Positions 9,952-49,849 of a DNA stretch of 64,000 bases are shown one piece after another. Under the pieces are notes generated by a model. The model did no database searches. It was not told the origin of the DNA and worked only from the letters and a program-made list of their open reading frames with translations. Source of the DNA: Allodiplogaster sudhausi. Its lineage: Eukaryota; Nematoda; Chromadorea; Rhabditida; Diplogasteridae. Within the stretch, counting starts at the first letter, position 1; every line of letters starts with the position of its first letter. Made by a program: the position numbers and the translations under genes. Location of the stretch: positions 1,748,001 to 1,812,000 of the forward strand of contig CALZFC010000354.1 of assembly GCA_945643635.1 (NCBI GenBank), in the 5' to 3' direction.

Positions 9952-11419
9952 TCCGATTGAAAATGAGTGTGAACTCTGTCACAAACATTCTTTGGCAACT
10001 AGATGCCGAACATTCAAAACAATTCAGGAACGAACAGATGCCGCTTCCAATCTAAAACTTTGTATCGCTTGCTTCTCCCCCAATCATATTCTGGCGAATT
10101 GTAAAGAAAATTGTAAGGTCTGTTCAGGGAAACACCACCTTTCCCTCTGTCCCCAGCTTTTCTTTCCAAAGCCCAAAACTACCCATACTCTGAACTCCAT
10201 TTCGGGAAATGATTCACACTCTTCTGAAGGTAAGGAAAGGACAGTGAAAGTTGTCAGTGCTGCTGCCACCCTTTCCTCCCCTTCTCTTACATGTCATTTG
10301 ACCACACATGGTATTGTTGTGGATGATAAGGGCTCCCAGGTTCCGGCTTTGATCATGATTGACTCTGGCTCCAACAAAACTCTGGTATCCCCAGATTTCG
10401 CCAAGCGTGCCCGCCTCCGTCCTCTATACTCTCAGGAAACTACCATTAGCGGCTTGGGAGGAAAAACGGACGGAAAGAAAATGCATGATGTCGTTAGGGT
10501 GACCCTCAAACCCCCCTCTGGACCCAACATTGACATGAATGCTATGGTTTTCCACACCAAGATCTCCTCCTCCATTTCCCCTGGCATTCTGGACCAGTCA
10601 GACGCGGCGGAGCTCCGCCGTAGGGGTTGGACGATCCACGATGAGGGAAGTCTGGCAGACAGAGTACCTCCGGATATCCTCATTGGCCTTGACTACATTC
10701 CATTCATTCTTTCCCCCGGGCAAAATATTGAAATGCTTCCCAGTTCTATGGTTGTCCTTCCCACAATCTTCGGTCCTCTTCCTGTTGGATACCGTTACCG
10801 AAAGTCAGGACCCTCAGAAAATGCAATTTCTCTTCCCCTTCAAGAATCAAAGAAATCTGGCTTATCTTCTGGTGGTCTGGCCTCTTCAGGTAATCTACCT
10901 AAGGTGAACATGACTTCTTGTGATAAGAATGTTGTTGTCGTCGGGTTTCTATCCGCAGGATTGCATCATCAGGACACCGTTAAGGAATTTCAGGGAAACA
11001 TTTCCAACTCTCCCCCTCTGAATATAGCTTGTTCCGATCCATCCACCAATGTCACTTCGACTAGCTGTACCATTCAGGAAAGTGAGAAAAGGTTGAATGA
11101 GGAAGGGAAAGTTCAGGCTCCCTCCCTTTACCCCACACAATTCACAGGCCTTACCTGTGTCGACATGTGCCTTTCCACAAGGACAGTTTTGCCCGCCACA
11201 AAGAAAATCAGGACTCGCGGGGAAACCTTGACCCATGTCTCCCTCTCATCCTGTGGTTCGGTTCCGGAAATTCCCTTATTCGGCAAGATTACATCTTCGG
11301 TGTCAAGGCAAACTCATTTCGATCTATTCACATCTTCGCCCACTCCAACGGACATGACAAGATTCATTGGTGACGAAGGAAGCCTGGACGACAGCGAACC
11401 TCCGGACATCACTCGATAA
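9952..11419 (+). CDS. Zinc-knuckle and aspartic-protease segment of BEL/Pao polyprotein
   Basis: One long open frame. Near its start are Cys/His clusters (CELCHKHSLATRC, CIACFSPNHILANC, then CKVCSGKHHLSLC) of the type that binds nucleic acid in BEL/Pao gag. About 80 residues on comes IMIDSGSNKTLV, the DSG active site of a retropepsin-like protease (DUF1758 type), followed by the LIGLDY motif usual after the protease domain. The last ~150 residues are low-complexity with no recognisable domain, and the frame stops before any reverse transcriptase. In complete elements the frame would continue into reverse transcriptase. The listed start is the upstream end of the zinc-knuckle frame; the first in-frame ATG is at 9992. 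Confidence 0.8.
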
Positions 11420-18000: not shown

Positions 18001-21000
18001 AAGCGTCCGAAGGTCTACGCTTTCCGTTTTGCATTTGCAGGCACGAACTCGAAGGGGTAGGGACCTAATAGCAAAGTGTAATAATATCATATGAAAGTGG
18101 GAGTAATCTAACACTAGAGAGCTCCATGTTAGATTGGCCAGCAGAATGCACCGAAGAAGCACACGACGACTATAATAAGCGGAGATAGATTGATCATTGC
18201 TCAACTTTTAGAAAACTACCTGCTCATTCGAGAGATATGCTGTAGCATACTCAAGATCGAGGGGAAAGATACCGAATAGTGCACGTTCCCTTCCAGCCTG
18301 CAGGTGAGTCACTCGCAAAAACCTTTCAAAGGCCAGGCCAAGGCGGCTGCAGACGAATTCCCTGATACCATTGAAGGTGTCCTCGTCACACTCTTCTTCA
18401 CCCATCTCGTGTGCAACACTTAATCCATCTTCGGCGAGAACGCAAATCTTTAGAAGCATCTCTGTTTCTATAGAAAAGTGGATTAAGTCTTAAAACATAA
18501 AATGACAAATATTAGTAGGCGATTTTACGCCCCTCACATTCCGAATGGTCATTTTGTCAAGTTTTATTCAAGTGGAAAGTGTCTGAGGGGCACACATACA
18601 ATGTTACCATCGAAATAGGAATCATGTGGATGAGCAGAGTTGAGAGAATCAAATGAAAGGACAGTAAGAGTATCACATAATTGAACGGAGTAACAATTGA
18701 TTGAGTCGAGCCACTCAACAGTAGTACAATGTTCTACAATCATCTGCCAAGTATCGTTAATCAAAGCGAGCATTTGGATTTGGCCAAAGGCAGGCAAAGG
18801 GCCCCCAGACATCACAACCATATCCCGTTCTCCATAAGACATGCCCAGATATTCGAGTCTATAGCTAATCATATCGGGATCGATGACAAGTTCAGAGAAT
18901 ATGGCGCGCAGAGGGGAATCTGAGGGCAAGTCGGACGGGTATGCGGCACCATAAGTAGGATAAGCTTCAAGAGAGAACTTTACGCGCTGAGAATTCAAGA
19001 AATGCTGGGCGTGGGAGATCATGGTGAACGGCAGATTCTGATAATTTCTGGACTGATAGGAATGCGCTTTGACGGCAGCATTTAGCATTTCAAAGTCCAT
19101 GCACCAATTTAACGTGGGTGGGCCAAGCATTCGGATGAATCGAGAGTAATGTATTAAATGATGTGATTTGATAGTCATGCCAATCAATTCGGGATTCTCA
19201 GTTAGAATTTGTTCAACCGAGGCAATGTACTGCGCGACAAGATTCTCCAAAGTACACAGATCGCTATCGCAAAAGGACGGCTGTAAGAGAATCAGAACAA
19301 TCTTCCCGAGAAGCACGAAAGAATCCCACTCGGGACAGTCTGAGATATCAGTCTGCTTATGCAAGATGAGAGGTAAGAGTCGAAGCAAGGTATTTGTCTG
19401 GGAAGCGCGTTGGCCGATAGAAGTTCCTGACAGAGAATCATGCTTGAAGGGCGAGGGACGGCAGGCAGCATCTTGTTTGCCGTAGGGCCAATTTGCCAAT
19501 AAAGGGTTGATCGTGTTCAGCTTGAGGCCACGCCGATCTAGTGCACACAGTAGCCTGATGATAGACCTGGGCGCCTCTCCCTCCATGATGTCATGCATTA
19601 AGTCAAGGGTGTGATCGTTCATAAAGTCATATTCTGATATGGCCGCTAGTAGAATACTGTCCTTGAATCCATGATTTTTCAATGCACCCCTTGCGCTTGC
19701 GTCCTCAAACCATTTTCTATCCTTCAGAACAACATTTTGCGGGCGCCTAGCTGTGAGGAAACTTTGAGACTCTGTAAGGCATAGCCTGCATCGGCGGTAA
19801 TTCAGTAAGAGGCCGCGGACTTCGTACTGTGCCTTATTATCGGCTATGACAGACAACAGAATTGGGTTGTAGACCTCGTGGTTAATCTCCAGACCCCCTC
19901 TACTTCTGATGGCCGCAACGTCTTGTTCAAGAAGATCAATAATTGGGCGGAATGCGTGGGCTGCGTGATCTTTAGCATATGCTACAGTGTATACGAACTT
20001 TGAGGCGAGGCTAGAGGAGACATCTAGATGCAAACCAGCAAGCTTGATTTGAAATATGCAGAGCGAGTTTGCGGATGACTTTGGCCCTAAGTTTCCGCCT
20101 GGTGAGACGTCATCGCAATAAAGCAGAAATGGAAGGGGCTTCATGGACTGATTGGGCAGGCTTAGCAACGATTTGAACAGCTCTCCTTGTTGGTGGCAAC
20201 AAATTTTGTCAGAGGTGCAAGGTCTGAGGAGGTTATGAGTGTTGCAGAAAGAAACAGCCTGCCGGAGGATTTCAGACAGATCGAATGAATGGAAAAATTC
20301 CCCTTGTTCAACTCTAAGGGCCTTCCCATTGCTGTCTCTCTTCACCGATTGAATAATTCCCATTTGGTGCCTGCGTACAGCAAGGCACTCGCCAGATTTC
20401 AGTAATAACTGAGTACGCTTGTAGTGGGAAGAGGTTGCTTGGAGATCGAGGCGGGCACGTGCAATGGCTTGCGAATCACCTGACTCTACAATGCGTAGCA
20501 CTCGTTCGAGCAGTGCATTGACGTCATCCAATGACGTACGGGCAGTTCCTCGCCCCATTTGTCGCGAGAAGAACTGCCGAATTCCGGGATCATCATTCGC
20601 AGAGTCTAAAGATATGAAAGCGTGTTTCAATACAGTAAAGATATACGAGCAATTAGAATATTAGAACAAATGGGAAAATATCAGGATAATAACCTGCATT
20701 CGTTGGGACATCATCTGATTCGTCGTTGCATGTACCGTAGTCGTTCATGCTAGCGTCGTCAGCATCGACATCCATCGAGTCGACAGCGCGAGGGTTGACA
20801 GCCGCACGCGCTTAAGAATTACTCGACTGTTAATTTAAATGTTTTGTTGTTACAAAAAGGTATCGGAAGACAAATAAATAATATATAAAAATTGCCTTGT
20901 GGAACGCTGTCGGCATGATGATCCCTCCAATGCTTTTGCATGTTGCTCATGCTCGCATATGTCCTCCGTATCGGGCATAACTTGCATACCAAGCTATACT

Positions 21001-31853: not shown

Positions 31854-32381
31854 CGCGAAGTCGCTGACAGATATGTAAAAAGTAGGGTATAAACAATAAT
31901 GGTGCTACTGAACTTCTCAATCTCTGTACAGAACTTTGTGGTTATGTGCATAATTTGCTTGGGATCGGACTTGTTAAGAAAAAAAAACCGGCACCGATAT
32001 GCAATGGTACCGGCCGGGCCACGGTGTATCTCTGCCAAAAGGTTTTTGTAAATGGCAGGAAGTTCGAATGTTCGTTATTGACGGAGAGTTCCAAGTACGG
32101 GAGAGGTCGAGATTTATCGCGAAGTCGCTGACAGATATGTAAAAAGTAGGGTATAAACAATAATGGTGCTACTGAACTTCTCAATCTCTGTACAGAACTT
32201 TGTGGTTATGTGCATAATTTGCTTGGGATCGGACTTGTTAAGAAAAAAAAACCGGCACCGATATGCAATGGTACCGGCCGGGCCACGGTGTATCTCTGCC
32301 AAAAGGTTTTTGTAAATGGCAGGAAGTTCGAATGTTCGTTATTGACGGAGAGTTCCAAGTACGGGAGAGGTCGAGATTTTT
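31854..32381. repeat. 264 bp direct tandem duplication 5' of the intact receptor
   Basis: 31854-32117 is repeated almost exactly at 32118-32381 (unit begins CGCGAAGTCGCTGACAGATA), with a third single relative at about 42838-43055. The near-identity means the duplication is recent. Confidence 0.92.
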
Positions 32382-32914: not shown

Positions 32915-33560
32915 TTGTGATTATACGAAAATCTTCGGCAGCGGAAGGACGTTATTGATTGGCAAAACTATTCCTTCCCGTCGTTTGAAGGGTGTAAATT
33001 TACTGGTTATAATAGAAGACATATTATAGCAATAGACAGCTCGTAGATGGAGAAAGTAGAGGGGAATATTCGCACCGTTCACAAGAATACTTTTTTCAGT
33101 GAGAGTTCTGACGTTTCTTAGTATTTCAGTAAAACTACACTTCAACACGACATACTTAACAATGAATCCCTTCTCCCTAATCTCTAATATGAGCCACGAT
33201 CATTCTCCCGTTCTCAGTATTATGTATGCAATTTCTTAATCTATGTATGCTTCTCGATGAAATGCGTTAGTAATTCTGTTTTGTTCACGAATCCCATTCT
33301 TCTTTGCCTCCAGCTCGTCTCTGGCGTGTTTACTCTTTTCTCACCTTCGACTTCACCTGTTTCTGCCTCCATATTTCCATAGTTCCATTCAAGTTACAAT
33401 TTCAAACAATACACAACAGACATAAATTTCTGGTTATTCGCAATATGAATGAACAAGAGTGAGAGAATGTACATATGTACATGTGCATACATTTTTCAAT
33501 TTCCACACATAACATATGTGCATGTATACATATTTCAGTTTCCATTTACAACACCTTTAA

Positions 33561-38693: not shown

Positions 38694-40827
38694 TTAATTA
38701 ATCTTCTTTCAACACGTCGTCCATTCCTATTCTAACAGAAATTATTCGCAATAAGGCTGCGCTCTGTATCGCGCCGCTTAGTATCCTTCTTTCTATCGAA
38801 TTTAAATTTTTATATCTAAAACCATGAATGTGAACTCTGCTATCAATTACCCTTACAGAATGGTCTAGTTTTACATGAAAACCGTCTGCTCACATCTGAA
38901 TTTTTTCGGCATATAAGGGCATTTCTTAAAGAGAAGACAAAAGTCAGTTGGTGAAAATTTTGTTGGCTAAAGGAACGGAGAAAAAACAAGAAGAAGAATT
39001 TTTAATAAAGATTGATCCCACCGAGCCTCTGTAGCATTCGCCATACGACAAAGTAGATGATGAGTGCAGTCGCATTAATGGCCAATCTTGCATATGCCCA
39101 TAAAAGCAACGCCGCTCCACGAAACATTGATGGCAATTAACAAGGAAATGAGCTCAAATATATTCATCTAATATATTGTAGAGTTGGTAAAATTTTAATT
39201 TCCTAAATTGTTGATGAAAGGTTTGCAGTAAACACCTCAATAATGTTCTTTAACGAAACTATTGTGAATAACCAGGGAACAGAATACAAAAAAAATTAAG
39301 ATTCATTAGTACACTTGACTAGGGTTAAAGAAATAAAGAAAAAAATTTCAAGCACAAACTTCCGGCCAACAGGAGATGGCGATTGATGTTAGGGCGCAAG
39401 TATAAGCTGAGACGAATAAGAGATGTCCGAAGAGATAGAGCGCTTGGTTCTTGAACTTATAACTGAAATTCAAATGTTTTCTAATCAGATTTATTTTTAT
39501 CGCATAAATATATTTTACATAAACAAAGTACATACAACTCACTAGTTGATTGCCGCACAAGCAAGAAGGCGGTCAACCGCAATGCAGACGATCAGAGCCG
39601 ACCCAGCCAATGCACCGATCATAGGAATTGCCTGAAACCAGCCACACATTCAATCTTGGTCAAAGTTCCGTTGACTTGCCAACGACGTTCAATCTAAGTT
39701 GTCATCACTGGGTGTTCGAGATTGTTTGATCTTTGAATAAAAAAAGTAATCCCTTTCGGGAGCGAACCCGGTCTGGATTCCCAGAAACTCACGGGGGAAC
39801 CAAGGAACGACTAGCCATGATAGCCTATCTAAGATAAACACGTTTATTCGGGCGTGGCACCGACATCTTTTTTGTCTGTCTGCCTGCGATGTTTCGTGCC
39901 TCAAACTTGGATGCTTAAACCGGCCTAAGATCGACGAAGGGCGAGAGAGACAGTTCAATGTATGACAGTGTAGAGAAACAGACAAACATGCCCTCATCGC
40001 TACTGTCTAACTCTCCGACTCTTGTACACTATTTCGCTAGCGTCGAACTCTCATCGCTGCGTACAACTGTTTTTGATTGCTTACGAGTTGAACGCTAGTA
40101 TTGGATGGACAAAGTTCTATGGTTTATCATTGCGAAAATCGTCGATCTTTCCCATCTGCATTCACCTTTTGGTGATGCACCTGTCGGTCATCTTGGCTAA
40201 GATTGAATGCGCGGCCGATGTTTACCTACTGATAATCTCGAATGAAAAGGATGACACTTTCTGGCCCTATCCTTGGTCTTATAGTTAGTACCAGGTCTTC
40301 GTTTAAGAATTTCTCCTTAGACCTCAATTGCGAAGCAGGTCAATGGCGGCGTAATGACACACAAAAAATAATTGTTTGAAACAACATTGTTTGGTGCACG
40401 ATTGTTTTATGAATTGTTTGAAACAACAATTGTTTCAAAAAAATTGTTTGGCATATCAAACAATTTGTTTTACCGATTTGCACGCTATCCATTCCGAGGC
40501 AATTGTTTGGATTGTTTCATGGAAATTGTTTGATATATCAAACAACAGCAGCGCAGCCGCGATGTCGAAGTAGCGATCACGTCCGATCTGGCGAGTTAGG
40601 CAACGTCGAGCAGCGACACAAGGGTTCAAACCCATATGTGGCCAATGTTACCCAACATGTTTTGCCCGTTTTATCTTTCATAAAAACCGACAGTACGCCG
40701 TTCAATTGGGTACCATTAGTCAACATATTCTCTTTCTCTTTATAAGTGAACCAGGAATTGGCCGTGTTGCAAAAGTTGGATCCCTCGCATTTGTGCGTGT
40801 AATCAAACCACTCAACTTTACTTATTC

Positions 40828-40994
40828 GCGTCTCTCTGTACCTCACTAGAACCACCTTTCTGTGTAGAATGTAATGACATAGAGAGAGAGAGAGTGACCT
40901 TTCCGTCTCTTTATAGCGTTTACATTAAAAGAAACACAAAAACTCACAAATCTCACACGCAGTCGTTTCTGCGCTCAATTATCAATCAATATGG

Positions 40995-41093
<99 letters not shown>

Positions 41094-41250
41094 AACTAAC
41101 AAATCTCAGAAACGACTGTTTCTGAGATTTGTGAGTTTGTGTGTTTCTTTTGCTGTGATCGCTATAAAGAGACGGAAAGGTCACTCTCTCTCTATGTCAT
41201 TAGATTCTACACAGAAAGGCGGTTCTAATGAGGTACAGAGAGATGTGTAA
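40828..41250. repeat. ~155 bp inverted repeat around a (CT)n core
   Basis: The left arm (40828-40985, with GTGACCTTTCCGTCTCTTTA) is the reverse complement of the right arm (41095-41250, with TAAAGAGACGGAAAGGTCAC). The centre 40990-41090 is CT microsatellite. The RNA from either strand would form a long hairpin. Confidence 0.85.
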
Positions 41251-41374
41251 AATTCACGTTGAGCGTTGTTCTTACACTTACAAGTTTGCGCACAAGAGCG
41301 AGGAACACGGCCAACTCATGACATCACGAACAGTGTTCACATATATGTTCTCAGACCTCGGATGAGGTTCAGAA

Positions 41375-41625
41375 TTACTTTTATACAACATTAAATAGCT
41401 CAAAAGAATCGCCTTTTTCTGTAGAACAATGTAGGATAGAGAGAGACGCAACTTATGGGCTCCCTCTAAATGATTTTCTCAAAAGAAACACAAAAACGGG
41501 CATATTTTATTCCTCAGACCTCGAGTGCGGAAATCGTTCAGACTTACTTTTATACAATATTAAATAGCTCAAAAGAATCGCCTTTTTCTGCAGAAAAATG
41601 TAGGATTGAGAGAGAATCAACTTAA
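41375..41625. repeat. Two ~80 bp direct repeats
   Basis: ACTTTTATACAACATTAAATAGCTCAAAAGAATCGCC... at about 41375-41455 recurs at 41545-41625 with few changes. Confidence 0.8.
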
Positions 41626-41845
41626 GTCACGTTGAGCAGCAAAACTCTCGAAAAAAACCTTTTGGCTCTTAGCAAAATTGGCACAGATGGCGAGACCGAG
41701 TTCGTAGAGTTCTCTCTCTCCCTCTCGCTCTCTTTTACTCTGCCTCTTTCCTCTTTCTGTCTCTCTTTCTCCATTCTCTTCTCAACGTTCTCTATGGGCG
41801 CCGCCCCTTTTCTTCTGGATAAGTTCTTCAACATTCAGATCGCTA

Positions 41846-42105
41846 GCGCGGGTAGTGCAATGGTAGTCGCTTGGGTATGGGATGCGTGGGGTGGTGGTTC
41901 GGGTCCGGCCGGGAGCAGAATTCTGATTATAATTCCAGATACAACGATGACGGCGCCAACACTTCTCTACAAACCAGGTTAGCCAGTTTTTCAACTTTTG
42001 CAGCTTTTGTTCTCATGATTTACCTACAGTTTAAACTGTTTTATAGCGAAAAAAAACCGCAATAATGGCTGCAAAAGACGATTAACTGGCTAGTTTGTGG
42101 GTCGT
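41846..42105 (+). mobile_element. tRNA-headed SINE with palindromic 3' tail (copy 2)
   Basis: A-box-like TAGTGCAATGGTAG (41853-41866) and B box GGTTCGGGTCC (41896-41906), followed about 70 bp later by a 3' inverted repeat (CAGGTTAGCCAGTTTTTCAA ... GATTAACTGGCTAGTTTG) with CTTTTGC/GCAAAAG inside. This is the same layout as at 14123-14460 (minus). Confidence 0.62.
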
Positions 42106-43170
42106 GTTTGAGATTCCTGATAGCACAGAGAGAGAGAGACGGAGAGAATGTAGGAGAGGGTGTGTAAGAGGGTTAGCTAATTAGATATCGAAAAAATTAG
42201 GTAATTAGCATCGAAACTTATCGGAGAATATAAGAAAATTGCTAAAATTCAATGAAAAATGGGTGCGCAAGCAGAAAGGGGCGGAGCCAACACGGCTGCG
42301 CTGTGATTGTTTGATATGTCAAACAATTTCGTTGAAACAAATTGTTTGATATGCCAAACAATCGCGCAACAAACAATGATTGTTGGCTATATGGAACAGC
42401 ATTGTTTTGGCGCAGATAAGGAACAAATTGTTTGTATGAAATTGTTTGATATATCAAACAATGTTTTTGTGTGGACCGGACCAAAGATAGGGCCGGCGAT
42501 TATGGGCAAATGGCCACAGACGTGGAAGGCGTCCATCAAAGAGCAGAGCGCGATGAGAATGTTGCATGAGCCCCGGAGCTCTCTTTAATAATTACATAAG
42601 TCAAAAATGTTTTTTTTAAGTTTTGAATATTTTTGTTAATTTCAGCAAAGGGTCAACTAGAAATCTGCCAACTTGTAGCGAATCGTTGCTCCGACGACGC
42701 ACAAGTTGCCAAAAACGCCAAAAACGATAAATAAGATATAAAAGAGTGTTAGCACATCTGCGTATGTCGCATTCATACTGGAATCTCTGTAATGGAATTG
42801 TGGAAGTGAAAGGAGATCACAAGGGAACAACTCCTACCACGAATTCCCTGACATGTAGGTAAAAAGAACGGTATAAAGAATAGTGGTGCAACTGATCTTC
42901 ACTATCTATCCACAGAACTTTGTGGTTGAACAATTTGCTGAGTCTAATGGCCCCGGCGGCCACTGTGTGATTCTGTCAAAAGGTTTTTTTTTGTAAATGG
43001 CGGGAAGTTTGAAAATTAGTTCTTGACTGAGAGTTTCAAGTACGTGAGGGGTCGAGAATACTGACGAATTTTGTGAATTAGGGACACTTGCAATCGACGT
43101 TTCTAGCTCATCTTGAAACAATAATGCGAAAAACGTGACACTATTTATTTACCGGAAAATTCCTTTAATG

Positions 43171-43665: not shown

Positions 43666-45320
43666 TCTAACTACTAATAAAGCGTTAAGTCTGGGTATGT
43701 AATAGTTTCCTTCTAGAACCTTCCATGCAAGTTTGACGTATCCGAATTGTTAAAACTTTGCACGTTGCGACATTTCTACCACGACGAACGTGGTGACTTT
43801 TGGACCTGAGGCTGACTTCTGCCCATGCTTTTGAACATGGTAGATTGTTCTAGAAGGGGCCGAGTTTGGTCCCAGGAAAAACATCCCAGAAGGTTAAAAA
43901 AGGGGTCAAGTTTGGCACCGGAACGTGGAATTTTCCAGAACATTCCGGAAGTGGCCAACGTCTGCCCCAGATACTGAGAGCATTCCAGAAGGTTCCAGCA
44001 GAGACCAAGTTTTCCAGAACAGTTCGGAAGGGTCCAACGTCTGCCCCCGGTCCTTGGAACATCCCAGAAGGTTCCAGAAAGGAACAATTTCTCCACATCA
44101 TTCCGGAAGGGGCTAAAGTCTGCCCCCGGTCCTCGGAACATCGCAGAAGCTTAAAAAAGGGGGCAAGTTTGGCCTCGGGACGTGGAATTTTCGAGAACAT
44201 TCCGGAAAGGGCCAACGCTTGCCCCCCGATACTGAGAGCATTCAAGAAGGTTCCAGAAGGGACCAAGTTTTCTAGAGCATTCCGGAAGGAGCCAACGTCT
44301 GCCCCCGATTCTGGGAACATTCCAGAAGGTTCCAGAAAGGACCAATATCTTTAGAACATTATGGAAGGGCCAACGCCAGCACCCGGTCTCTGGAACATTC
44401 CAGAAGGTTCCAGAAAGAAATAATTTCTCTAGAAGATTCCGTAAGGGGCCAACGCCTGCCCCCGGTCCTTGGAACATTCCAGAAGGTTCTAGAAGGGGCC
44501 GAGTTTGGCCCGGGACGTGGAATTTTCCAGAACATTCCGGAAGTCGCTAACGCCTGCCTCCGATACTGCGAGCATTCAAGAAGGTTCCAGAAGGGACCAA
44601 TTTCTTTAGAACATTATGGAAGGGCCAACACCAGCACCCGGTCTCTGGAACATTCCAGAAGGTTCCAGAAAGAACCAATTTCTCTAGAAGATTCCGTAAA
44701 GGGCCAACGCCTGCCACCGGTCCTTGGAACATTCCAGAAGGTTCTAGAAGGGGCCGAGTTTGGCCCGGGACGTGGAATTTTCCAGAACATTCCGGAAGTC
44801 GCTAACGCCTGCCTCCGATACTGCGAGCATTCAAGAAGGTTCCAGAAGGGACCAAGTTTTCTAGAACATTTTGGAAAGGACTAACGTCTGCCCCGATTCT
44901 GGGAACATTCCAAAAGGTTAGAAAAAGGACCAATTTCTCTAGAACATTCTGGAAGGAGCCAACGCCTGCCCCCGATACTGAGAACATTCCAGGTTAAAGT
45001 GACCAAGTTTTCTAGAGCATTCCGGAAGGGGTCAACGTCTGCCCAAGATTCTGGGAACATTCCAGAAGGTTCCAGAAAGGACCAATTTCTCCAGAACATT
45101 CCGGAAGGGGCCAACGCCTGCCCCCGGCCCTTGGAACATTCCAGAAGCTTCCAAAAGGGGCCGAGTTTGGCCCCGGAACGTGGAATTTTCCAGAACATTT
45201 CGGAAGTGGCCAACGTCTGCCCCCGGTTCTTGAAATATTCCAGAAGGTTCCAGAGCGGACCAAGTTCTAACTTCGAAAATCTGGAATACCCGACTTCTGG
45301 GCAACTTTCTAAATATCTGG
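43666..45320. mobile_element. Helitron-like element carrying a heat-shock-element array
   Basis: The duplicated block at 33.4-33.55 kb shows the empty site TATGTGCA|TGTATACATATTTC. Here the same A|T junction is opened by 1655 bp beginning TCTAACTACTAATAAAG and ending AAATATCTGG. A 5' TC, a 3' CTRR and insertion between A and T without duplication are the Helitron hallmarks. No Rep/helicase ORF is present, so it is non-autonomous. A strong 3' hairpin is not obvious: only a short CCC...GGG stem near 45290. The interior is a tandem array described separately. Confidence 0.75.
43845..45270. repeat. Tandem minisatellite of perfect heat-shock elements
   Basis: About 15-17 imperfect units (roughly 80-100 bp each) alternate GGAACATTCCAGAAGGTTCC(AGAA) and TTTTCCAGAACATTCCGGAA with spacers like GGGCCAACGCCTGCCCCCGG. 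Both cores are runs of alternating nGAAn/nTTCn pentamers, the binding site of heat-shock factor HSF-1 (established for the family). Each unit therefore carries two strong heat-shock elements. Frames in this DNA (for example 43850-44354) are repeat artefacts. Confidence 0.88.
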
Positions 45321-47491: not shown

Positions 47492-49809
47492 CTATGTACG
47501 CGTTCTCGTGAACGGTCTGTGACGGTTAGATCTCGCTGGTTCGCCGCGATAGCAGATGATTGACGACAGCGCCATGCGATATTCCGTGCTCAAAGAAGGC
47601 ACAAAGTATAAGTGTGATAAGAAAACGAAGAAATGATTGGATTGTTTAGGAGTTAAAATAAAAATATAATTTGTGGAAGGATATCATACTAATTGCATCC
47701 ATCAGACATAACGCGGCTCTTACATATACCGTATATTCTCTATTAGAACCCCTCCTCCCCTCTCGGAAGGGCATTGAAAAATAGTGCCCCCGGGGCATTA
47801 ATAGAGAAAATACGGTATGTACCCTTGATTATCGCCCACTAGATTAGAGCGTTTTCTCGTGGAGGCATATGAGATAACTATAGCTATTAAAATAATAAAA
47901 ATTATTTCTCAATAAACTCTGCGCAGTCGTTTCCTAAACGTGACTACTGTTGAAAAGTTCAAAGTCAGAAGTAACCTTGTGAGGTAGAGAATGACGACAT
48001 TAGTGGTGACGGAAGTGTTGACGAAGAGACCAGCGAAGAGTGTCACTTCGGCAGGAAGGCCATTTCTTGCATTGATGAAGAAGGAAGCAGAGAAGGAGAT
48101 TGCGGAGGTGGCCACCGAACCTCCGAGCACCACGACCGTGATTATCAGCAGTGAGCGGAAGAGACGTCGGTGTAAATGAGTTTTAACTGGAGAGTGAGAG
48201 AGAGAGCGTAGCAGAGAGACAGAAATAAGCGGATGTTTGTCCTATGCCTTCATCAACTGAGCTTTTGCAAACTGTTTTAGCGAAAAACAACAGCAGTTAT
48301 GAGCTCCAATATTACCGAATGGACTACGATTGCCGGATTAATAATTGTAATTCATCTTCTTTCAACAAGTAGTCCATTCCTATTACCATAGTCATATACG
48401 AATGATTCGCAATTAAGGCATCATTATAAGTGAATTTTTTTTATAAAGAAAAGACATAACTGAGTTCATAAAAATTTTGGTGGCTAAAGAGGAAAAAAAG
48501 AAGATTAAATTTTTCTGGTAAAAATTCACGACAGATCCAACCGAGCTTCTGTAGCATTCGCCATAAGGCAAAGTAAATGATGAGTGCAGTCGCATTAATG
48601 ACAAATGTCGAGATAATACCAGAAATCAAGGCCGGTCCGTGAAACATTATTGGTAAGGAGCACGGAAATGACCTCAAATTATTTTCATTTAATTTATTTT
48701 GAAGTTAGTTTAATTTTATTTTCCTACATAAGTCATGAAATTTTCACAAACCAGCAATTCTTAAAGAAATCATCTCAACATTCTTCTGTCATAGCTCCGA
48801 GCAAGTCAAAGTGCAACCTTTGGGGGTCGGGCGACTAGCGTTAACATATTGCACTTTGGCTTGAGGGGGCTATGACATCGCTCTCAAGGCAAGTTTAGAC
48901 TTTTTTTTAACGAAACGATGGTGAATAACCAGGGAACAGAATACATAAAAAAGATCCATTAGTACAATTTCCTTGGTTAAATAAATAAAAGTATATTTTA
49001 AAGCATAAACTCAAGGCCAACAAAGGAGAGGGCGATTGCTATTTCTGCGCCAGTGTAAGCTGAGACGAACAAGAGATGACGGAAAGATAGAGCGCCTCGT
49101 TCTTATTATTATAACTGAAACTCGGGATTTTTTATAATCAAACTTTATTGATCGCATGTTTTTTTTATTTAAAAAAAACTCACTAATTGCAAGCCGCAAA
49201 AGCGAGAAGGCGGTCCACCGCAATGGAGAAGATCAGAGCCGTCCCAGCCAACAAACCGATCATAGGAATTACCTGAAAACCCGCCACACATTTAATCTTG
49301 GTCAAAATTGCGTTGACTTGTCGACGATGTTCAATATAAGCGTTCAACGCTGATTGTTCTATATTCGAGCCTGTTTGATATTTGAATAAAACCTGCCACA
49401 AAAATGCTCACTTTCCGGTCCAAGTCCGGAGGGAGTCATACTGCCCCTGAGAACCTCAATCTCTCTTAAGACCTCAATTGCGAAGCAGATCATTGGCGGC
49501 GTAATGACCGGACCAAAGATAAGGCCGGCGATCATCGGCAAATGGCCGCAGACGTGGAAGGCGTCCATGAGAGAGCAGAGCGCGATGAGAATGTTGCATG
49601 AGCCGAGGAGCTCTCTTGAATTATTAATTTAAACAAAATTTTTAAAAAAAATTTAATAAAAAAAACTCTTGGATATTTTTGATTACTAAAAAAAAATCGA
49701 CCAACTTGAAGCGAATCGTTGCTCCGACGATGCACATGTTGCCAAAAACGCCAAAAACGACAAAGAAAAGATGAAAGAGCGTTAGGACGTCTGCGAATGT
49801 TGCCTTCAT
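47492..49809 (-). pseudogene. Srsx-like chemoreceptor pseudogene (single-base lesion)
   Basis: Exons 49809-49706, 49614-49473, 49272-49184, 49114-49011, 48672-48542, 48186-47976 and 47588-47492. All lengths equal those of the intact copies except exon 4, which has 104 nt instead of 105 (TATCTTTCCGTCATC versus TATCTCTCTGGACATC). This shifts the frame and gives an early stop. Exon 7 also lacks 5 nt in the basic tail. TM1-TM3, TM5 and TM6/7 peptides are otherwise well kept (INATALIIYFALWRML; NTSVTTNVVILYL). Recently inactivated, or a sequencing error in exon 4. A short MITE (47729-47815) sits in the last intron. Confidence 0.82.
47729..47815. mobile_element. Short MITE with CCGTATATTCTCTATTAG ends
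   Basis: 87 bp, TA-flanked, inverted ends (CCGTATATTCTCTATTAG / complement of TTAATAGAGAAAATACGG). Relative of 27680-28129. Confidence 0.75.
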
Positions 49810-49849
49810 CCTGGAATCTGTATGATGGAATGCATCCACCCCTGTTCAA

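Follow-up and report, generated by a model that had tools for sequence, protein, structure and literature searches.

Why should a stretch of nematode DNA lying in a cluster of chemoreceptor genes carry a long tandem array of perfect heat-shock elements (HSEs), and how did the array come to be there? The stretch of 64,000 nucleotides analysed here (hereafter, the window) holds it within a discrete insertion, and we consider it highly probable that this insertion belongs, as a non-autonomous copy, to a lineage of heat-gated Helitrons. Its parts, and the local site that lacks it, are as follows.

43666..45320, plus strand: non-autonomous Helitron copy of 1,655 bp, lying between A and T (empty site in a local duplicate; other genomic copies).
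43666..43684, plus strand: 5′ terminus TCTAACTACTAATAAAGCG, common to the family.
43711..43723, plus strand: subterminal three-pentamer HSE at nt 46 of the element, found at the same place in the coding relative on contig C46.
43928..45250, plus strand: HSE array of about 15 units of about 79 bp, comprising 20 of the 21 perfect runs (three pentamers or more).
45279..45320, plus strand: unusual 3′ end, consisting of the family segment ATCTGGAATACCCGACTTCTGGGCAA and then ...AATATCTGG; relative to six other copies, about 230–300 bp including the hairpin are missing.
33397..33560, no strand assigned: paralogous empty site with its junction at 33,522/33,523 (match to the joined flanks of the element).

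When the two flanks of the element are joined, they match positions 33,397–33,560, where the element is exactly absent between an A (33,522) and a T (33,523), and the comparison reveals no target-site duplication. Identity to this empty site is 88% over 131 bp on the left and 97% over 38 bp on the right, beyond which the right side diverges. The termini of the insertion are the first and last bases of 43666–45320. An A/T insertion relative to an empty duplicate at 33.5 kb, with the Helitron ends TC...CTGG, had been part of the original prediction; both points are borne out, and the ends are present in the window copy as well as in the family. The element therefore displays the TC/CTRR termini and the A/T insertion without target-site duplication that belong to Helitrons.

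We counted as HSEs alternating GAA and TTC triplets every 5 bp, with zero mismatches and in runs of at least three pentamers. By this measure, 21 runs fall within the element, 14 of them four pentamers or longer and 10 of them five, and the 62,345 bp of the window outside it contain a single one. Tandem Repeats Finder returns a period of 79, with 2.8 copies at 43,931–44,149 and 12.0 copies at 44,186–45,158, which agrees with the roughly 15 units proposed before; the accompanying estimate of two strong sites per unit was slightly high, given 21 perfect sites in about 15 units. The array scores far above the shuffled repeat, 1,000 dinucleotide shuffles of the element having yielded a mean of 0.074 runs and a maximum of 2. 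As a second control, 15-copy arrays with 15% substitutions were simulated from the real unit and from 2,000 mononucleotide-shuffled and 2,000 dinucleotide-shuffled units, and the mean number of runs was 9.5, 0.01 and 0.03, respectively. None of the 4,000 shuffled-unit arrays reached 21 runs; arrays of the real unit at 15% substitution also average well under that number. Across the genome, the five-pentamer HSE occurs 1,191 times (582 + 609), against 3 (2 + 1) for the reversed pattern. A chance origin of the HSE-like pattern is ruled out by the shuffles and by this reversed-pattern control, and dense HSEs beyond chance are found in the window element, in the 16 copies described below and in the genome-wide pattern.

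The family was followed through the 351.8-Mb assembly (382 contigs). A BLAST search with the window element gave at least 93 matches, with 40 of 298 candidates scored. The 34 matches of at least 500 bits, window itself aside, share only 69–78% identity with the window element, which does not have the look of a recent spread. We examined 35 loci, which became 23 once 12 that overlapped or were refetched longer had been set aside. Both family ends are present in 16 of these 23, every one preceded by A and followed by T, and other genomic copies share the 5′ end of the window copy; the search for further copies thus came out as the original prediction had it. The A/T target is read from the empty site for the window copy and from the flanking bases for the other copies. 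The 16 two-ended copies measure 1,290–8,804 bp and hold 12–130 HSE runs of at least three pentamers, whereas the flanks fetched with them have none at 14 loci and one at the other 2. Two further two-ended copies present the same A/T and HSE picture, and 26 of 27 distinct 5′ ends in the fetched loci follow an A, the remaining one a G. The longest copy, L031 (G000:C109, ~425,482–434,285), is an 8.8-kb element; expansion of its array has brought the number of perfect HSE runs (three pentamers or more) to 130.

The usual 3′ terminus of the family is of the type ...CCAGCCGGTGAAGCGCGCGCGAAGCGCGCGCGAACCGGCTGG followed by T, and the corresponding pattern, with at most one mismatch, occurs 155 times in the genome (75 + 80), against 2 (1 + 1) for a reversed control. 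The final 48 nt can form a stem reaching the CTGG in most of the 16 copies, down to −36.9 kcal/mol with RNA parameters; in some, the stem is weaker or stops short of the end. One copy (L006) now ends in CTGC, and another (L034) at a different CTGG, located in an upstream hairpin. Spread of a satellite by other means is ruled out by the ends, the target and the empty site. The first 100 five-pentamer sites listed are all on contig C1. Of these, 87 form clusters of two or more within 3 kb, and 58 have a listed 3′ end of the family no more than 3 kb away or a BLAST match no more than 2 kb away. The other 42 are not tied to the family by this crude distance criterion, although L070, the only one of them to be read, belongs to the family as a decayed copy. 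Six single five-pentamer HSEs at C1:5.27–5.31 Mb were considered as a cluster of host heat-shock genes, a candidate that we rejected when the one read proved to be that decayed copy.

Regarding the expectation that the same ends would recur elsewhere in the genome, the 5′ end of the window copy does so, and its 3′ end, TAAATATCTGG, differs from that usual in the family. It cannot be taken as the family end: in the six aligned copies that keep the segment ATCTGGAATACCCGACTTC, similarity extends about 230–300 bp past the end of the window copy, to the hairpin. The last 48 nt of the window copy reach only −5.7 kcal/mol (RNA parameters) and the family hairpin is absent, yet the copy still finishes, with ...AATATCTGG, exactly at the A/T site. 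Two events could have produced this end: termination may have come early, at a CTGG inside the element, or the stretch between two CTGG sequences may have been deleted later. According to the second, the copy would have inserted with its full hairpin end and lost the stretch between the internal and the terminal CTGG afterwards, a course of events that falls just short of being the probable one. It fits the identical 4 bp at both candidate break points, the shortened hairpin ends of L034 and of the C46 element, and the strong terminal hairpin of the family, which may invite slippage. On the other hand, the bat element Helraiser makes truncated insertions as well as insertions with new 3′ ends, the latter being commoner once its hairpin is deleted (PMC4778049), so early termination is equally plausible.

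We then ask where the heat-shock elements stand in a copy that has a gene. The best Rep match in the genome lies on contig C46, with a family 3′ end about 3.4 kb downstream on the same strand. The element measures 7,254 bp between family ends; it starts with TCTTACTAATAATAAAGCGC after an A and ends with GCGAACCGGCTGG before a T, its hairpin being shortened, and pieces of its array are 66–83% identical to the window element (BLAST). All of its 25 HSE runs, of up to eight pentamers, fall at nt 46–1552, ahead of a possible start codon at 1679 and of the coding frames; the remaining 5.7 kb have none. These frames match Helitron_like_N (PF14214, 2.9e-58), Pif1_2B (PF21530, 4.8e-11) and, in two pieces, PIF1 (PF05970, 1.2e-7 and 1.4e-5, the latter narrowly missing the cut-off) in Pfam; a fifth piece has no Pfam match. 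A coding relative with Rep and a PIF1-type helicase, and with HSEs upstream of the Rep-helicase gene, is therefore part of the family. Because all 25 HSE runs are upstream of the Rep-helicase frames, the array looks like the heat promoter of the transposase. One in-frame stop interrupts the C46 copy immediately before its Rep domain, so that this copy is probably dead; an active source was not found.

A second coding relic, on contig C242, shares 84.7% identity over 4,351 bp and is preceded by three HSE runs. This Rep-helicase relic (L067/L069) has in turn been hit, immediately on its upstream side, by a non-coding HSE Helitron belonging to the lineage of the relic itself.

Our reading of the window element as a non-autonomous derivative of this lineage can be laid out in steps. 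A founding element would have carried tandem HSEs in front of its Rep-helicase gene, and activated HSF-1, which we expect to bind such arrays in the host nematode, would have switched on the transposase in heat. Derivatives would have kept both ends and the array while losing the gene; they would move by rolling-circle replication, presumably with Rep-helicase provided in trans, whereas their ends and their A/T target are directly visible in the sequence. Each insertion would drop tens of predicted strong HSF sites at a new place. The position of the HSEs in front of the transposase of the gene-bearing relative leads us to suggest that heat probably activates the element and that its copies, in spreading, distribute heat switches across the genome.

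Helitrons often contain tandem arrays, and the one in the window may be an ordinary minisatellite picked up by a Helitron, its GAA and TTC triplets coming from the ancestral unit or from palindrome structure and HSF having no part in it. Its units are related by duplication, so that the number of HSEs overstates the number of independent events. We compared mismatches to the consensus at GAA/TTC positions with those at the NN positions between them, in 216 units of 17 elements (L031 left out), anchoring the test on the inter-HSE spacer, which does not select for HSE bases. In the inner three pentamers of the upstream HSE, triplets mismatch at 246 of 1944 positions and NN at 207 of 864, the triplet rate being lower in 16 of 17 elements; across all five pentamers of the downstream HSE the figures are 791/3240 and 612/1728, lower in 15 of 17. 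The outer two upstream pentamers go the other way and favour the minisatellite, with more mismatches in triplets (354/1296) than in NN (209/864) and a lower triplet rate in only 5 of 17 elements. Split by base, triplets against NN stand at 0.232 against 0.245 at G/C and 0.162 against 0.236 at A/T in the upstream HSE, and at 0.300 against 0.375 and 0.216 against 0.319 in the downstream HSE; when L031 is included, the upstream G/C comparison reverses, to 335/1425 (0.235) against 251/1140 (0.220). A first version of the test, on the inner three upstream pentamers alone, looked strong, while all HSE parts together are mixed. On balance the conservation of HSE bases is in favour of their having been kept, and we treat it as weak evidence because the result is mixed and the units are related.

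Selection for hairpins is not suggested either, as the NN are self-complementary in only 281 of 1,649 pairs (17%). The arrangement in C46 argues further against an ordinary minisatellite: its HSE runs lie only upstream of the gene, reach eight pentamers and occur, by our reading of the sequence, in two kinds of repeat unit. We judge the minisatellite account unlikely and return to the heat-gated lineage as the preferred explanation.

The relationships of the Rep protein were explored with a piece from locus L066. Among the 8,000 candidates scored, restricted to proteins of up to 1,046 aa, its relatives are Helitron proteins of nematodes and of many other organisms. The best of these by E-value is from Trichuris muris (62% identical over 93%), followed by Nippostrongylus (54%). 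That a distant nematode such as T. muris should top Nippostrongylus possibly reflects horizontal transfer or uneven sampling. Other Helitron Rep domains gave 120 genomic matches. In the 30 loci fetched from among these, no array is seen and 15 contain one three-pentamer run each; as the loci extend only 1.5 kb on either side, and the C46 locus (L036) shows no array in such a span either, the comparison is uninformative on arrays. Contigs C134, C29, C117 and C85, among others, have Rep domains in single open frames of ~3,300–4,743 codons. Several of these frames score identically on different contigs; the frames point to Helitron lineages that are large, apparently open and do not resemble the HSE family.

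The nematode nature of the host is supported by joined exon pieces in the window that match Srsx chemoreceptors (Pfam, 7.9e-15 and 2.2e-6). Its COX1, on contig C228, which holds a second match, is 92% identical to that of Litoditis and 89% to that of C. briggsae. A COX1 tree of 23 rows, one of them Caenorhabditis, places the host outside the pair formed by Litoditis and C. briggsae, with support 95/89; from this position, the host is a rhabditid and very probably not a Caenorhabditis.

Helitrons that spread HSEs in Caenorhabditis, to which the original prediction had pointed, are indeed described there as Helitron1_CE, Helitron2_CE and HelitronY1/Y1A/Y4_CE (Garrigues et al. 2019, Schreiner et al. 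2019; PMC6927752). RNA of the Helitron1_CE Rep-helicase is reported to be HSF-1-dependent (PMC6927752; PMC6765114). The likeness extends to tandem overlapping HSEs, to the presence of coding and non-coding copies, to HSEs tied there to Rep-helicase expression, and to dense clusters, eight HelitronY4_CE copies having more than 100 HSEs (PMC6927752). Unlike those families, the one described here has a host that COX1 places outside Litoditis and C. briggsae, its own termini and a hairpin stem running into the CTGG terminus. Among the scanned genomes with annotated Helitrons, HSE enrichment was found only in Caenorhabditis and may, according to the same report, be restricted to it (PMC6927752). 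Judged by titles and abstract openings, none of the open-licence papers listed sets out to describe HSE-loaded Helitrons outside Caenorhabditis, and passages in some of them cite the Caenorhabditis work or concern other things. Regarding consequences, deleting the Helitrons upstream of fbxa-215 is reported to alter heat tolerance and fertility (PMC12062965), and a study of HSF-1 binding describes tetrameric and pentameric sites as the heat-inducible ones among those probed (PMC9148306).

Other systems share only part of the arrangement. Helraiser, from bat Helibat1, has TC...CTRR-type ends, an A/T target, a 3′ hairpin and a Rep-helicase; it differs in its CTAG end and in a 19-bp palindrome placed 11 nt before that end, and the relevant passages draw no link to heat (PMC4778049). 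The Xuan-Feng Helitrons of wheat share the role of heat, which promotes their mobilisation, and the promoter of the coding Feng8 is heat-responsive; they differ in belonging to a plant, in giving extrachromosomal circles only with drugs plus heat, and in an account whose main text lacks the words HSE and HSF (PMC13286980). We therefore regard our family as a published kind of element, the HSE-loaded Helitron, in a new host, a likeness judged by features, and the hairpin that runs into the terminus as a small variant of that known kind.

The same arrangement thus appears in a rhabditid very probably outside Caenorhabditis, with the array of the coding element where a heat promoter should be. 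It thereby becomes testable whether the coupling between transposon and heat-shock regulator arose once in an ancestor or repeatedly. A broader proposal, which we put forward tentatively and regard as possible though somewhat doubtful, is that heat-gated Helitrons are not peculiar to Caenorhabditis and run in another rhabditid lineage (having arisen before the split, by horizontal transfer or by convergent HSE capture), and that the heat-shock response as a whole is shaped by their derivatives, working as mobile HSF-1 sinks and inducers. Satellite III serves as a point of comparison for HSF1-bound pericentric repeats. If the proposal is true, the derivatives, with 130 perfect HSEs in one 8.8-kb copy, would correspond, in dispersed form, to the pericentric satellite repeats bound by HSF1 in mammals (PMC11431837).

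Turning to the neighbourhood of the window copy, two chemoreceptor genes are relevant.

42426..42785, minus strand: nearest Srsx gene, exon 1 (42,660–42,785) and first part of exon 2 (42,426–42,584), from tblastn of exon pieces (Pfam Srsx, 2.2e-6 joined).
47954..49818, minus strand: neighbouring Srsx gene, better preserved (Srsx, 7.9e-15, joined pieces).

A further piece of exon 2 of the nearest gene is found at 40,308–40,358, and about 2 kb of other sequence (40,358–42,426) separate it from the first part; split in this way, the gene looks broken. That the insertion rewires an adjacent chemoreceptor gene or an antisense transcript to heat, as had been suggested for this copy, is very unlikely and finds no support here, because the nearest Srsx gene looks broken and the element sits 3′ of the other one, about 2.6 kb beyond its last recognised exon, with a reverse-transcriptase-like fragment (RVT_1, 0.0012, below cut-off strength) between the nearest gene and the element; in its favour are the position of the element, ~0.9 kb upstream of exon 1 of the nearest, minus-strand gene, and the enrichment of GPCR genes among C. 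elegans heat-responsive genes with Helitron HSEs (PMC6927752).

One chemoreceptor exon, used as the query of a protein search, yielded no relatives, and no Rfam families or tRNA genes were found in the 64,000-nt window. Elsewhere in the window, a 688-codon frame on the minus strand (18564–20630) has no Pfam match at E 0.001, and a 475-codon frame at 9992–11419 is retroelement-like, with an aspartyl-protease match. Within the chemoreceptor cluster, positions 31854–32379 form a perfect two-copy tandem duplication of 264 bp, which reflects either a very recent event or an assembly artefact.
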